A DNA stretch of 64,000 nucleotides from Thermococcus thermotolerans. GTDB taxonomy: Archaea; Methanobacteriota_B; Thermococci; Thermococcales; Thermococcaceae. Below, piece after piece: positions 15,513 through 30,842 of this stretch. A program made the translations under genes and the position numbers. Where the stretch lies: assembly GCF_024707485.1 (NCBI RefSeq), contig NZ_CP102602.1, positions 1,736,001 through 1,800,000 of the forward strand, written 5' to 3'. Position 1 is the stretch's first letter. Each line of letters begins with the position of its first letter. Under the pieces are notes generated by a model. The model was not told the DNA's origin, did not search any database, and saw only the letters and a program-made list of their open reading frames with translations.

Positions 15513-15679
15513 GTCACTCTCCACTTTAACATTTTAGGTTCATTGAGGGTTCGATCCGAGACTTTTTGGAAATCAAATACGTTGGTTACTTAATTCTGGT
15601 TTGTTACTGTACAACCGGCACTAGCTGTTTTTGCATTCACTAACTCAGGTGTATTTAACATAACTTTAAAACGTAAGAC

Positions 15680-15688
15680 TTATAAGGT
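15680..15688 (+). promoter_or_regulatory. Promoter of the seven-gene secretion/ABC operon
   Basis: ACTTATAAGG lies about 45 bp upstream of the ATG at 15729 in an AT-rich 215-bp spacer. It is the only good TATA box before the operon; downstream genes are joined by overlaps of 4 bp or gaps of 4 bp. Confidence 0.6.
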
Positions 15689-15728
15689 CCGGCACGTCAT
15701 TACTAATGCCCTCAAAGGGGGTGCTACC

Positions 15729-16100
15729 ATGAAGCGTAGGATACTGCTCGGAGTCCTCCTGGTTGGAGGACTGTTGATTGGCCTCGTGAACGCCGCAGGC
15801 AGCAACGCCTCCACCCAAAGCTGCTGGACGCCATGGGACCACAACAGCGACGTTAGGCAGTGGAGCGACAACGAATGGGTCTGGGCCGGCATACACGGGC
15901 AAGTACTCGTATGCAACGGCCAGTTCAAGATGGTCCTCACAGACACCGTCTACGGAACAGCCACAGCAAAGGGAATGGAATGGTATCAGCCAGAGCATAG
16001 AGTTACTTCTTCTTTTGCATATTACAAGGTAGTTTACAAGAGGTACTCTGAGCCATACAAAGACACTGCAATAGCATACCTACCTAATTACTGGAGGTGA
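15729..16100 (+). CDS. Small secreted protein heading the ABC operon
   Basis: A 123-residue precursor. The basic start MKRRILLGVLLVGGLLIG followed by LVNAAGS is a Sec signal peptide with probable cleavage after Ala22 or Ala23. The mature part of about 100 residues is Trp/Tyr-rich (eight Trp, nine Tyr) and has two cysteines (in QSCWTP and LVCNGQ) that could form a disulfide outside the cell. No membrane anchor. I recognise no family. It is first in an operon of two anchored paralogues, a PEGA protein and an ABC exporter, so it could be the exported or sensed molecule. Its last third has a lower GC content than the first part. The ribosome binding site is GGGGGTG, six bases before the ATG. Confidence 0.7.
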   Translation: MKRRILLGVLLVGGLLIGLVNAAGSNASTQSCWTPWDHNSDVRQWSDNEWVWAGIHGQVLVCNGQFKMVLTDTVYGTATAKGMEWYQPEHRVTSSFAYYKVVYKRYSEPYKDTAIAYLPNYWR

Positions 16101-16104
16101 ATTG

Positions 16105-17130
16105 ATGAAAAATATCTCTCTTTTATCTCTTTTTTTTATTATCCTCGAGCTTGCTGTATTATTGATTTCTCCAGTGTCGTCTGTTCATACCCTGTCCTTA
16201 GAGGGGGTTTATTTAAAATATGCCCTGCTAACTCCCGACAATCCCCAAGAATATGATGTTAATATCTTTGAGGTTTACCTATCCCAAATACCAAATCAAT
16301 CCCGGGATTTAATTTTAAAACGTCTAACTGGTACAGGTGCAGATGAGCTTGTATCCTTAGTGGTTCGGGGAAACGTATTTCTGACGTTCAGGATATTGGA
16401 TGTGCAAAATGAGACTGCACTTGTAAACACCACTCTCGAACTTAACGATGTCTGGATTTACAACAGATATTATCTAAAGAAGATTGTCATGTCCACGACC
16501 CTCACATTAGATCTTAGACGCATGGAGTACATAGATAACAACGGTTCAGTACTCGGAAGGCCAACTTTTCTTGTCTTTCCAGAGAATCTGCCCCTCAAAG
16601 GAAGTCTACTGGTAAATATGAGCCGTGTCGGGAAATTGGGTGCTGCAACCCAAGACATTCTCGTGGACAATGTATCTTATTCTTTGTGGGAGCATACAAA
16701 GTTAAACACATACTATCGCACTTTTGAACCCCCATATATCCACATATCCAGCTCACAGGTTCCTTTCTACTGGAAACTCAGTGACGGTTATTACTCAGCT
16801 ACAATTTGGAGTAACTACATCTATGATTTTGATACTGGGGTCTTGATAACAGGATCTTTTGATGTAACTCCAGAGTTGCTGGCCCTCGGAGTAATAAACG
16901 GCGATAGTTATGATTATTCAGCCGCCGAAAGGAATGAGAGGCTTAAGGATCGGGGCGGAACCCCCCATGGGCTCTGGAATCCTGGCTTCAACCTCTACGA
17001 TACTAACATTAAATTCCCTGAAACTTCTTCCACAGCAACCCCAAGAACAGGAATGAAGTACTTCTTCGCGGCTTCACTAGCGCTCTTGGTCATCGCTGCA
17101 GTCCTTAACTGGAGGTGGAGAAGGGAATGA
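16105..17130 (+). CDS. Secreted, C-terminally anchored protein of unknown function (paralogue 1)
   Basis: A 341-residue type I membrane protein. The signal peptide ends near SPVSSVHT, an extracellular domain of about 280 residues follows with many Asn-x-Ser/Thr sites, and a single C-terminal segment (YFFAASLALLVIAAVLNW) ends in the basic stop-transfer RWRRE. It is clearly paralogous to the next gene: GVYLKYA/GTYIKYA, DVNIFEVY/EVNIFMIW, FLTFRILDVQNETALV/YLTFEILNVTNETALV and GFNLYDTN are shared. Unlike its paralogue it is strikingly AT-rich, with many ATA, TTA and TTT codons. GGAGGTGA overlaps the stop of the previous gene and precedes the ATG at 16105. The family is not recognised. Confidence 0.75.
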   Translation: MKNISLLSLFFIILELAVLLISPVSSVHTLSLEGVYLKYALLTPDNPQEYDVNIFEVYLSQIPNQSRDLILKRLTGTGADELVSLVVRGNVFLTFRILDVQNETALVNTTLELNDVWIYNRYYLKKIVMSTTLTLDLRRMEYIDNNGSVLGRPTFLVFPENLPLKGSLLVNMSRVGKLGAATQDILVDNVSYSLWEHTKLNTYYRTFEPPYIHISSSQVPFYWKLSDGYYSATIWSNYIYDFDTGVLITGSFDVTPELLALGVINGDSYDYSAAERNERLKDRGGTPHGLWNPGFNLYDTNIKFPETSSTATPRTGMKYFFAASLALLVIAAVLNWRWRRE

Positions 17131-18161
17131 AGAAAACCACCATTGTTATCCTAGCACTCTTGGCAGTCTCAGCAACCACATCCCCAGTTTACTCGCTCCC
17201 ATATTGGTTCAAAGAAGGAACCTACATCAAATACGCAATGAAAATGCCTGAAAACCCTGAGAAAAATGAGGTAAACATCTTCATGATCTGGCCAAGACTC
17301 CTCCCGAAGGACACCTACAACAGAATTAAAAAGACCTCTAAAGAAGATGGCAGTCCTTTGGAGATTGACAACCGCACCCTGATATCTCTCTTCGTTACGG
17401 GCGATTCGTACCTGACTTTTGAAATCCTCAACGTCACCAACGAAACGGCTCTCGTGAGGGTTACGCTTGAAATGAACAACGTGAGTGTGAGGCCGGGTGA
17501 AATCATTCCCCGCTTGGTTCTTTCGAGAGTCCTCCGCTTAAACCTGAGCGATATGGTGTATTATGAGGAGGATGGTACCCCAATCGGGCCACCTACGTTC
17601 TTCATAAATCCTGCCAGCCCGCCGAAAAAGGGTGATTATCTCCTCACCCCGGCTTTTATGAAGAAGTATGACCTTAAGGGGGATGATATCGTCATAACTA
17701 ACGTCTCGTTCACGTGGATGGAGGACAAAATCCTTCACACCCACTACAGGGACTTTATCCCACCCTACCTGTTTGTTGAGAGCAGGGGGGCATACGTTAT
17801 TGATGATCTAACAAGAGGTGAGGGCCATACCATAATAACTGAGCTGATTTACGAACCGGACACGGGTGTTCTTATAGCAACGATTTTCACGGACATGACA
17901 TCAGAACTAACAAGTTTGGGGGTTATAGGAGCGATTGCTCTTGACAGGGTGAACTCACGGAAGCTTCACAAGCTCATCGATGAGGGCAAGGTGGATAAGG
18001 AGTGGTATGCTCAAGGTTTCAACCTCTACGACACCAACGTCAAGCTCCCTGACTATGGAAGCGGACGTTCACCTTCGACGCCGGTTAAGTACTTCTTCGT
18101 CCTCTCGCTCGTCGTTCTCGCTATGATAGCTTTGTGGACGGAAAGGAGGTGGAAGCGGTGA
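17127..18161 (+). CDS. Secreted, C-terminally anchored protein of unknown function (paralogue 2)
   Basis: A 344-residue protein with the same architecture as the gene before it: signal peptide ending at SPVYSLP, a glycosylatable ectodomain, a C-terminal hydrophobic helix (VKYFFVLSLVVLAMIALW) and a basic tail ERRWKR. Its codon use and GC content match the rest of the chromosome, in contrast to paralogue 1. The ATG (17127) overlaps the preceding TGA in ATGA, with GGAGGTGG eight bases upstream, so translation is coupled. The two ectodomains may form a heterodimer at the cell surface; this is inference. Confidence 0.75.
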   Translation: MKKTTIVILALLAVSATTSPVYSLPYWFKEGTYIKYAMKMPENPEKNEVNIFMIWPRLLPKDTYNRIKKTSKEDGSPLEIDNRTLISLFVTGDSYLTFEILNVTNETALVRVTLEMNNVSVRPGEIIPRLVLSRVLRLNLSDMVYYEEDGTPIGPPTFFINPASPPKKGDYLLTPAFMKKYDLKGDDIVITNVSFTWMEDKILHTHYRDFIPPYLFVESRGAYVIDDLTRGEGHTIITELIYEPDTGVLIATIFTDMTSELTSLGVIGAIALDRVNSRKLHKLIDEGKVDKEWYAQGFNLYDTNVKLPDYGSGRSPSTPVKYFFVLSLVVLAMIALWTERRWKR

Positions 18162-27944: not shown

Positions 27945-28118
27945 TTTTCTCACCTGAAAACCTGAGGAAAGAGAAGAATATAAGGGTTTAGCTATTGCAT
28001 GGCTATGCAACTCTTTTACTCTGGCTTCTTTTCGTTCATTCTAAGAGCAAAACTCAACTCTAAAAAAATTCGTACTCGGATAAAAAATGAAGAAAATTTA
28101 CTTGTGGTAAAAGGAAAA

Positions 28119-28127
28119 ATTTATAAA
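28119..28127 (+). promoter_or_regulatory. TATA box of the AT-rich secreted-protein locus
   Basis: GGAAAAATTTATAAAGG is a near-consensus BRE-TATA about 55 bp upstream of the GTG start at 28176. It is one of the best promoters in the window, suggesting strong expression. Confidence 0.65.
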
Positions 28128-28175
28128 GGCAAGTTGCTCACGTGGTGATGCAAAAACTCAGAGGAGGTAAACTGG

Positions 28176-29036
28176 GTGAAGTGGAAACCACTATTGGCAG
28201 TCCTCGTTGGACTGCTAATGGTTGGAACCTTAGGAAGGGCAGTATACGCAGAGCAGTATCCAACGACAGATGCTTTAGAAAAGATTAGTACCAACGAGAA
28301 AATTACGGTTGATGGAGTGAATGTTCCACTGAGAAAGATGAACAACGGAATGATAATTATAGGGCAAACTTCGAAGGTGGGCAGGGGTGATATATTAGAG
28401 AGGGTTAATCAGCTAATGGTAAGGCGTGTTTTAAACAAATGGACGGAGGATATAAGATTACAAAGCAACTATGAAAATACAATAATCAAATCTGACAGCA
28501 ACTACAGAATCACCACTTTTAAACTGAATGAGCGGGACAACAAGAAGATAAAATTATCAGTAGGAGCCGCTCTTTCTGCAAGGTTCAGAATGGACCAGTA
28601 TGATCCAGTAGAAACAATAGACCTCAGTGTTTACCACTACGCATATAGCACGGCCATCACGGAATATCCCCCTTATATCACATATCAGTACAACTGTAAG
28701 AGCATCAAGTTGAGCAACAAACTCTCTTTTGGAGGAGAAACATACGCCAGCGGTTGGAGCATAGGAGGTACTATTTCAATACCTCCGGGATTATCAATCC
28801 AAGTATCTGGTGGTAGTTCATGGATTTCAATTGACGGTTCATTTGGAGAGGACAGCATTAACAATTACGACTCGATATCTCATTCATACGAGGGTGCACT
28901 AACGGTTAGGGACTACACCAAAGTAAGAATATACAGTGTAAGTTCCATGCCCTTGGCAACGTTTGAGGTTACAACGGGCAACTTTAAGAGTCTTTCTACG
29001 AGCACATATGTGGCGATAGACTCATCAGCATTTTGA
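28176..29036 (+). CDS. Secreted beta-rich protein of unknown function
   Basis: A 286-residue precursor starting with GTG, seven bases after GAGGAGGT. Signal peptide: VKWKPLLAVLVGLLMVGTLGRAVYAEQ, cleavage after Ala25 or so. The mature protein has a charged helical N-terminal part (about 45-110), then a long Ser/Thr/Tyr/Gly-rich alternating beta region (about 120-286) with phrases such as SIGGTISIPPGLSIQVSGG and LATFEVTTGNFKSLSTSTY, without a membrane anchor. One Cys in the mature chain (QYNCKS). It is AT-rich compared with the chromosome. No family recognised; the alternation of polar and hydrophobic residues would fit an S-layer-associated or pore-forming beta protein, which is speculation. 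Confidence 0.75.
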   Translation: MKWKPLLAVLVGLLMVGTLGRAVYAEQYPTTDALEKISTNEKITVDGVNVPLRKMNNGMIIIGQTSKVGRGDILERVNQLMVRRVLNKWTEDIRLQSNYENTIIKSDSNYRITTFKLNERDNKKIKLSVGAALSARFRMDQYDPVETIDLSVYHYAYSTAITEYPPYITYQYNCKSIKLSNKLSFGGETYASGWSIGGTISIPPGLSIQVSGGSSWISIDGSFGEDSINNYDSISHSYEGALTVRDYTKVRIYSVSSMPLATFEVTTGNFKSLSTSTYVAIDSSAF

Positions 29037-29045
29037 GGTGGGACA

Positions 29046-30737
29046 ATGAGAAACAAAATCCTAGCCACTATTTTGATTTTTTTATTGGGGATTGCTCTCA
29101 TCATCTCGGCAACAAAGACACGGCCTATTTCACCCGAGGTAGTATCCTCTTCATGGGTAAACTGGACGGTAAAACGCCTTTACCTCGCTCAGGATCCGGT
29201 TACAGGTGGCTGGAACGGCGACGTTTCATTTACGATACTTCCAAGCCTGTATCACACATATCACGGTATCATGACGCTGAGCCTTCTGAACCTTAGTCCA
29301 ACACATCTCGAAAAAACCATAGAGTTCCTGAGGGAAGAAGAGGAGAATTTTTACAACGGTCGGAATTACCCTTCGGTTCTTGATGCCTATTATCTGCTAA
29401 CACTCTTTAAAGAGTTCAATATGAGCCTCAGAAACAGGGAGGCCTTCGAAAACTTCATCATTGAGGACATGAGGAAGTCAAACGAGACCTTCCTGCATGC
29501 GAAAACCCTCATTCTGCTTAATTCTACCTTGGCGAAGAACGTTTCCATGTCTCTCTGGCTCAAGCTGAGGCCGGAACACTCACTGGATTTTTTGTGGGAC
29601 TTCCTTCAGTTCAGGGGGCTTCTCATGGAGTCAGGATACTCCCCCGATGAAATACCCAACTACACCGTGATGTATGAGACCGCGAGGGCCGTGTTTGATG
29701 AGGCGTCCGACAGAATAGAGAGACTCGGTTTCTTTGATCTCAAAACCATGGCGAGATTCATAAGGGAGGAACACATCAAAAACGAAACGCTAAGAAGAAA
29801 AATACTAACGAGTATTCAGAAATACAAGTGCCTTGACGGCGCATACTCTGACACGAGAGGCGCTAAAAAGGGACACCTTGACACCACGCACTGGGCGGTG
29901 GAGACGATAACCTATGCAGGAGGAGACGTTGGGGCGGATACTGTAAGCTACCTGCGGTCCCTTGAAGGGCCACTCGGAGGTTTCGTAGGCATTCCAAACT
30001 ACATAGTGCCTAATCCGGTGGGCACCGCCTTCTCCGTAATAACTCTCAAGCTTTTGAATTCAACGGTGCCCAATGAGACGAGTGTCAGAGACTACCTACT
30101 CACTGAAATCTCAAGGGAGAGTAAACCGAGCCTGATATGGGTGGAATACGAGGCACTAAAGGAGCTTGGTGTGCCTCCCAGTAAGCTTAAGGAGACAGTA
30201 GAACCCCTTCTGAAAAGCTTCCTCGACAACCTGAACCTCTCGGATGTCTATCAAAACCACTACCTGCTAAAGGATATATACTACCTGCTTGTAACGAGTA
30301 GGGAACTGGGCATTGAAATCGACGAAAGATGGAAAGAAAACGTGACCTCCTTTGTTTTGGGACTAAAGGATAGTGATGGAGGGTTTGGTAGCAAAATATC
30401 AAAGATAAAAATTAACCGGCTCGAAATAACTCTTTACTCAGTCCTGATCCTCAACGAGCTTGGGTACGGGTATGGGGATAAAAAGACGGTTAAGTTCATT
30501 AAATCCAGCAGACAAGGCGCCCTGTGGTGGTCTTTACCAATAACCAGGTACACTTTGCTGGCTCTAAACTCAATGGGGGCCAAGGTTGACGGGAAAGAGG
30601 AGATAGCAAAGGCACTTGAGCTGAGAAAGTGCCCCTATGGCTTTTTCTCTTACGCCCCATGCGAACATCATGAGCAGGGGGGACCAATACCAACGTTTTT
30701 AGCGCTCGATATCCTCAGGCTTCTTGATTATCATTAG
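29046..30737 (+). CDS. Secreted alpha/alpha-toroid (prenyltransferase/terpene-cyclase-like repeat) protein
   Basis: A 563-residue protein with an N-terminal signal or anchor helix (ILATILIFLLGIALIISAT). Repeated units resemble squalene-cyclase/prenyltransferase-beta repeats: QDPVTGGWNGDVSFTILPSLYHTYHGIMTLSLLNL (about 53-87), LDGAYSDTRGAKKGHLDTTHWAVETITYAGG (about 265-295), LGGFVGIPNYIVPNPVGTAFSVITLKLLNS (about 310-340), SDGGFGSKISK...EITLYSVLILNELGY (about 440-475) and a final CPYGFFSYAPCEHHEQGGPIPTFLALDILRLL. These helices form an alpha6/alpha6 barrel in known families. Catalytic DxDD of terpene cyclases is absent. Two cysteines near the end (CPYGFFSYAPC). Located outside the cell, it is more likely a binding module than a prenyltransferase. 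Cotranscribed with the gene 9 bp upstream. Confidence 0.7.
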   Translation: MRNKILATILIFLLGIALIISATKTRPISPEVVSSSWVNWTVKRLYLAQDPVTGGWNGDVSFTILPSLYHTYHGIMTLSLLNLSPTHLEKTIEFLREEEENFYNGRNYPSVLDAYYLLTLFKEFNMSLRNREAFENFIIEDMRKSNETFLHAKTLILLNSTLAKNVSMSLWLKLRPEHSLDFLWDFLQFRGLLMESGYSPDEIPNYTVMYETARAVFDEASDRIERLGFFDLKTMARFIREEHIKNETLRRKILTSIQKYKCLDGAYSDTRGAKKGHLDTTHWAVETITYAGGDVGADTVSYLRSLEGPLGGFVGIPNYIVPNPVGTAFSVITLKLLNSTVPNETSVRDYLLTEISRESKPSLIWVEYEALKELGVPPSKLKETVEPLLKSFLDNLNLSDVYQNHYLLKDIYYLLVTSRELGIEIDERWKENVTSFVLGLKDSDGGFGSKISKIKINRLEITLYSVLILNELGYGYGDKKTVKFIKSSRQGALWWSLPITRYTLLALNSMGAKVDGKEEIAKALELRKCPYGFFSYAPCEHHEQGGPIPTFLALDILRLLDYH

Positions 30738-30842
30738 CCAGCCACATTTTTTACATTTTTAGATTTGAGCCATTTATAGGATAGAAAACCGACAATCGTT
30801 CTTTTCGCAAATAGATAGGAAAATGAAAACTAAAATGAAAAC

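Follow-up and report, generated by a model that had tools for sequence, protein, structure and literature searches.

A constant promoter and leader module with interchangeable secreted cargos in Thermococcus, and a candidate toxin paired with a putatively membrane-anchored toroid

In a 64,000-nucleotide stretch of Thermococcus thermotolerans DNA (RefSeq assembly GCF_024707485.1, contig NZ_CP102602.1, positions 1,736,001 to 1,800,000; hereafter the window, in whose own numbering all coordinates are given), two adjacent genes on the (+) strand, which we call P1 and P2, encode a secreted cargo protein and an alpha/alpha toroid. The P1 open reading frame (ORF) occupies 28176–29036, starts with GTG and encodes 286 amino acids. 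The P2 ORF follows after a gap of 9 bp, occupies 29046–30737, starts with ATG and encodes 563 amino acids. Both P1 (41.7% GC) and P2 (47.0%) lie below the window (54.8%), in agreement with a first-pass annotation, made from this sequence alone, that had described an AT-rich two-gene locus with a tight pair behind one promoter. What that annotation missed is that the promoter and the P1 leader are common to many unrelated secreted cargos.

Comparison of the filled site with empty sites in ten genomes placed the whole inserted unit, about 2.85 kb, at 27989–30838, with edges accurate to about ±10 bp. The flanks between which the insert sits, as given by this comparison, read ...ATATAAGGGTT and ...GAAAACTCA(A/G)AGCCTCCACTCC. 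On one side of the site is an amine-oxidase/desaturase-like gene and on the other an AOR gene; where the site is empty, reading from the desaturase-like gene meets the end of the AOR frame after about 110–130 bp. A presence/absence check, which the first-pass annotation had proposed, found the site empty in 15 of the 30 genus genomes examined and occupied versions of it elsewhere. Transfer had originally been deduced from low GC. The mobility was borne out by the empty and occupied versions of the site, but recent transfer on GC alone had to be rejected: cargos and partners of the system average about 45% GC across hosts, so low GC characterises the system throughout and is by itself no proof of recent transfer. 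Among 115 Thermococci genomes, relatives of P1 were present in 21 and relatives of P2 in 24, and every genome with P1 also had P2. Where a genome has both, the two genes lie side by side in the order seen in the window, an arrangement that distant relatives with about 25% identity keep at another locus and that also holds in two other genera. No P1 relatives were found in plasmids.

Upstream of P1 is a 140-bp promoter module, R1 (27995–28134, (+) strand), which we represented by a profile from 44 copies. It opens with the palindrome TTGCAT-GGCT-ATGCAA (27995–28010, 0 mismatches), 181 bp before the start codon, and contains the TATA box TTTATAAA (28120–28127, (+) strand), which falls in invariant columns of the module alignment. 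A ribosome-binding site, GGAGGT, follows at 28163–28168 on the (+) strand (GaGGTGAAC in the consensus). The earlier promoter claim held up, as the promoter is of the TATA type and the DNA preceding it shows strong conservation from genome to genome. The window copy scored 100.1 bits (E 3e-29), being itself one of the 44 training rows, and the profile matched in 78 of the 115 genomes with up to 13 copies per genome. In the aligned copies the conserved stretch runs from the palindrome to the TATA box, and conservation does not extend 5′ of the palindrome. Across 128 leader loci, TTGCAT-N4-ATGCAA with 0–2 mismatches was found 165–195 bp upstream in 62, and at the window's site the palindrome begins about 6 bp or less from the left edge of the insert. 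The palindrome may serve for regulator binding, for recombination or for both. An Rfam search of the promoter region returned no family; a known RNA is therefore not indicated. For an archaeal promoter, the conserved DNA that precedes the TATA box is unusually long, at roughly 120 bp (27995–28110 in the window), and it is so at about 60 further leader loci as well.

The constant sequence resumes in the coding region. The first 25 residues of P1 (MKWKPLLAVLVGLLMVGTLGRAVYA; 28176–28250, (+) strand) resemble the leaders of secreted proteins with unrelated mature parts, and a profile of this leader (cut-off E up to 0.05 per genome) had members in 78 of the 115 genomes, including 11 in the window's own genome. 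BLAST divided a sample of 111 near-complete cargos into 25 families. Profile–profile comparison merged no more than three pairs of these, leaving at least 22 unrelated families, between which mean identity was 65% in the leader and 6% over the next 100 residues. A Pfam match (glycine zipper or C39-like) was obtained for 4 of 101 cargos, three of which carry glycine zippers; no Pfam toxin domain was found in the other leader cargos. By inspection, the P1 leader is typical of Sec signal peptides. We rejected its reading as a generic Sec signal because the proteins that bear it are almost all uncharacterised and have the promoter in common too. Many leader copies (L202, L203, L204, L195, L136 and L162) stop after 35–77 codons behind an intact module, which suggests that cargo genes frequently decay. 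In cargo families 1, 4 and 7 (for example L120, L130, L139 and L173) the mature proteins carry Gly/Ala-rich hydrophobic stretches such as ALGAAIGAYVANVPGAIVGAVVGLAGGIAF, which resemble the glycine zippers of pore-forming peptides.

Downstream partners were cargo-specific and mostly membrane proteins, a pattern that is not true of every cargo family. Partner similarity was seen in 105 of 491 pairs within cargo families versus 36 of 5395 between them (0 of 500 permutations). A hydrophobic segment was present in 56 of 66 adjacent partners, compared with 22 of 59 control ORFs, by a simple hydropathy count rather than a topology predictor.

The first-pass annotation had presented P1 as a secreted, Ser/Thr-rich beta protein. 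Its leader agrees with secretion, the Ser/Thr-richness of the mature protein is mild (21%), and the beta character comes solely from an AlphaFold2 model built from three sequences with low confidence (pLDDT 36). P1 is under constraint where this is measurable (dN/dS 0.13–0.19). A close match of both proteins to characterised families had been named as grounds for refutation; for P1 none was found in Pfam, and comparison with Protein Data Bank (PDB) sequences gave nothing convincing.

For P2 the fold is clearer. An AlphaFold2 model from five sequences was an alpha/alpha toroid, with good confidence along most of its length (pLDDT 78). The model aligned to geranylgeranyltransferase (GGTase) beta (6j6x_B) with Z 18.0 over 240 residues (root-mean-square deviation (rmsd) 3.4), and to squalene-hopene and oxidosqualene cyclases with Z 11.8–12.5 at a high rmsd of 10–12 (for squalene-hopene cyclase, about 415 residues at rmsd 11); the toroid part, as aligned by VIA-align, covers residues ~59–563 (29220–30734, (+) strand). 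Pfam Prenyltrans (PF00432) matched weakly (E 8.9e-8, residues 390–488). These results upheld the earlier description of an alpha/alpha fold without the catalytic DxDD. Because DxDD (D.DD) is absent from the P2 sequence and no Cys or His is conserved across the family, leaving the Asp/Cys/His zinc site of prenyltransferase beta unmatched, a prenyl or terpene enzyme role is unlikely, and on the same grounds we rejected prenyltransferase or LanC-like catalysis. The charged residues conserved in the family are R44, E99, E307, D410, D444 and K528. Residues 2–22 (29049–29111, (+) strand) form a hydrophobic N-terminal helix in the model, and in relatives of P2 this helix is replaced by lipobox-like N-termini (...AAGC or ...SFGC). 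P2 had been called secreted; the helix and the lipobox-like relatives point to a protein better described as a toroid anchored to the membrane on the outside of the cell than as one set free.

A scan of genome contigs with P2 gave four loci. Extracellular toroids are not as singular as had been thought, as another secreted toroid-like ORF, of about 770 amino acids, recurs in Thermococcus. Genome G052 encodes a P2-like toroid of more distant relationship whose N-terminus is lipobox-like (L098:2144–4721); it lies downstream of a 232-residue secreted protein with no clear kinship to P1. P2-type toroids may pair with different cargos.

The pair is also seen in states of loss. In two genomes, G059 and G002, an identical scar marks a deletion of P1 that begins directly behind the promoter and reaches the final codons of the gene; the promoter and an intact P2 remain. 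Between these two copies P2 is under purifying selection (dN/dS 0.13, p 2e-23). With a dS of 0.21 for P2, against 0.66 and 0.54 for the flanking genes, the P1-less cassette seems itself to have passed between the two genomes. Elsewhere, P1 is in pieces beside an intact P2 (G028), both genes are broken (G017), or an orphan P2 lies at another place (G006).

The window's site has other occupants under module R1. These comprise a leader protein of about 260 amino acids with two membrane genes (G009, G047), a 442-residue leader protein with a transmembrane gene (G024) and a 314-residue leader protein with a polytopic protein (G030). In G006, G010 and, on a short contig, G052, the site holds an operon of the ribosomally synthesised and post-translationally modified peptide (RiPP) type, with a further copy in G043. 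Its genes encode a Cys-containing peptide of 34–36 amino acids, a radical SAM/SPASM protein and, as exporter, a DrrA-like ATPase and a permease, and the peptide starts about 180 bp after the palindrome start. The radical SAM proteins matched RiPP maturase models at E ~1e-50, which is below the equivalog cut-offs, and the frame in G006 is shortened to 220 amino acids. RiPP-like operons were noted at L238:1581–4885, L237, L245 and L264, with MEELIVLEKGAFGFNEPNFFICGSFCNPVKDNPN as an example peptide. Some RiPPs act as signals; an operon of this type under module R1 is nevertheless the best of the independent hints at a competitive role for the system.

Elsewhere in the window, a second low-GC stretch (41–47%) spans 15587–18161. 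It encodes a secreted-looking small protein of 123 amino acids (15729–16100), then two related proteins of 342 and 348 amino acids with an N-terminal signal and C-terminal hydrophobic segments; the proteins of this stretch gave no Pfam match. A weak R1 match lies just upstream (15587–15688, E 0.03), and the stretch is possibly another cassette of the P1–P2 kind.

Our sequence comparisons show a near-constant 5′ module (palindrome, promoter and leader) joined to interchangeable cargos, usually with a downstream partner. The cassettes occupy set chromosomal positions, one of which is the interval from the desaturase-like gene to the AOR gene, and are exchanged there, P2 being kept after loss of P1. 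With modest confidence, we favour the explanation that P1 and P2 are a polymorphic secreted toxin and its membrane-anchored immunity protein, where toxicity and immunity are what we infer from these patterns. P1 would be exported and cut after its leader, and mature P1 would act on the surface or membrane of competing, related archaea. The N-terminal helix would fix P2 to the outside of the producer cell, and the P2 toroid would bind P1, or the surface target of P1, so shielding the producer; having no recognisable catalytic motif, P2 would work by binding. To our knowledge the alpha/alpha toroid is not a known fold of immunity proteins. We more tentatively entertain a wider proposal, which we hold to be less probable, of a genome-wide Thermococcaceae weapon system, with the 140-bp operator/promoter and the leader as regulon tag and recombination handle, effector–immunity pairs and RiPP operons swapped at fixed sites, and, at this locus, an extracellular toroid as immunity protein. 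The binding/pore or surface-degradation reading of the first-pass annotation was generic and is not supported in the form given.

Several observations weigh against a toxin–immunity pair. P1 matched no Pfam family and no toxin domain was recognised in it, its fold not being modelled with confidence (pLDDT 36); many bacteriocins, too, have no recognisable toxin domain. Cargo families 0 and 13 have no consistent adjacent membrane partner, and the more distant P1–P2 pairs at the second locus lack module R1. Cases of P2 alone are few, and G059 and G002 count once because they have the scar in common. The only case that opposes the pattern of P2 outliving P1 is a second locus in the draft genome G048 (L066:6224–8862), where P1 is intact and P2 is split by a frameshift, possibly a sequencing error.

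The most probable of the rivals, though itself unlikely, is variable surface recognition or adhesion, in which the cargos would be secreted ligands and the partners membrane receptors or anchors for kin recognition, biofilm or attachment, with no killing. It would account for cargos that are secreted and highly diverse and for partners that are membrane-bound, one cargo matches a surface-adhesin model, and the same idea was raised by the VARTIG authors for another variable module of Thermococcales (PMC8416519). Purifying selection on P2 after deletion of P1 is not what a ligand–receptor pair predicts, however, and the RiPP operon at the same site under the same module also speaks against it. 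Extracellular toroids are known to serve in binding, and P2 lacks a catalytic motif; P1 might instead bind a nutrient or other ligand outside and the P2 toroid hold it at the membrane in the manner of cobalamin carriers or of the further extracellular toroids that the first-pass annotation listed (complement thioester domain, polysaccharide lyases). We regard this as improbable, given that no transporter gene adjoins the pair, that its presence is sporadic with many empty sites, and that promoter and leader are common to unrelated cargos. Surface defence against viruses or vesicles by exclusion, with P1 and P2 as surface-altering proteins, has the rapid turnover and exchange at hot spots typical of defence loci in its favour but is least probable of all, as no cargo matched PADLOC and no P2 relative was found in viral contigs.

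Among described systems, this one comes nearest to polymorphic toxin systems and bacteriocin or archaeocin immunity pairs, which likewise join a constant delivery part to a variable cargo with a cargo-specific neighbour gene, and show sporadic distribution, decay and a neighbour that outlives the cargo gene. It differs from them in that its constant part is only a promoter and an export leader, that no toxin domain is recognised and that the partner of P1 is an alpha/alpha toroid. The system would work like such systems yet cannot be filed among them, since we infer toxicity and immunity and no toxin domain was recognised. P2 has the fold of prenyltransferase beta subunits and squalene-hopene cyclases and differs from those enzymes in lacking DxDD and conserved zinc Cys/His, in its probable anchoring to the membrane on the outside of the cell and in its pairing with P1. 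Module and site are common to the radical SAM/SPASM RiPP clusters of other genomes, whereas P1 is a 286-residue protein with a signal peptide and no adjoining modifying enzyme. The VARTIG module of Thermococcales, which has variable, large secreted immunoglobulin (Ig)-domain proteins at the start of arrays (PMC8416519), is similar in combining a variable secreted protein with membrane-protein genes, belongs to the same taxonomic order, and has drawn similar hypotheses; P1, whose fold model is of low confidence, is of 286 amino acids with no Ig match in Pfam, and the gene arrangement differs. The arCOG10027/10028/10066 proteins are likewise variable, Thermococcus-specific and secreted, with a suspected conflict role, in operons with a zincin/Ig protein (PMC4158269); the gene content described there differs, and it is by this description that we set them apart. 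The literature searched yielded no account of the cassette architecture, of the module or leader family, or of any bacteriocin from Thermococcales, a mention in the 2019 mBio survey of archaeal toxins (10.1128/mBio.00715-19) not being excluded.

If this interpretation is right, module and leader would give a simple search tag for more than 150 uncharacterised secreted Thermococcaceae proteins, an arsenal open to testing, and candidate immunity genes could be found by position. Thermococcus kodakarensis genetics allows a direct test. The alpha/alpha toroid would gain a new role, and the system would show archaea swapping effectors while promoter and export signal stay constant.
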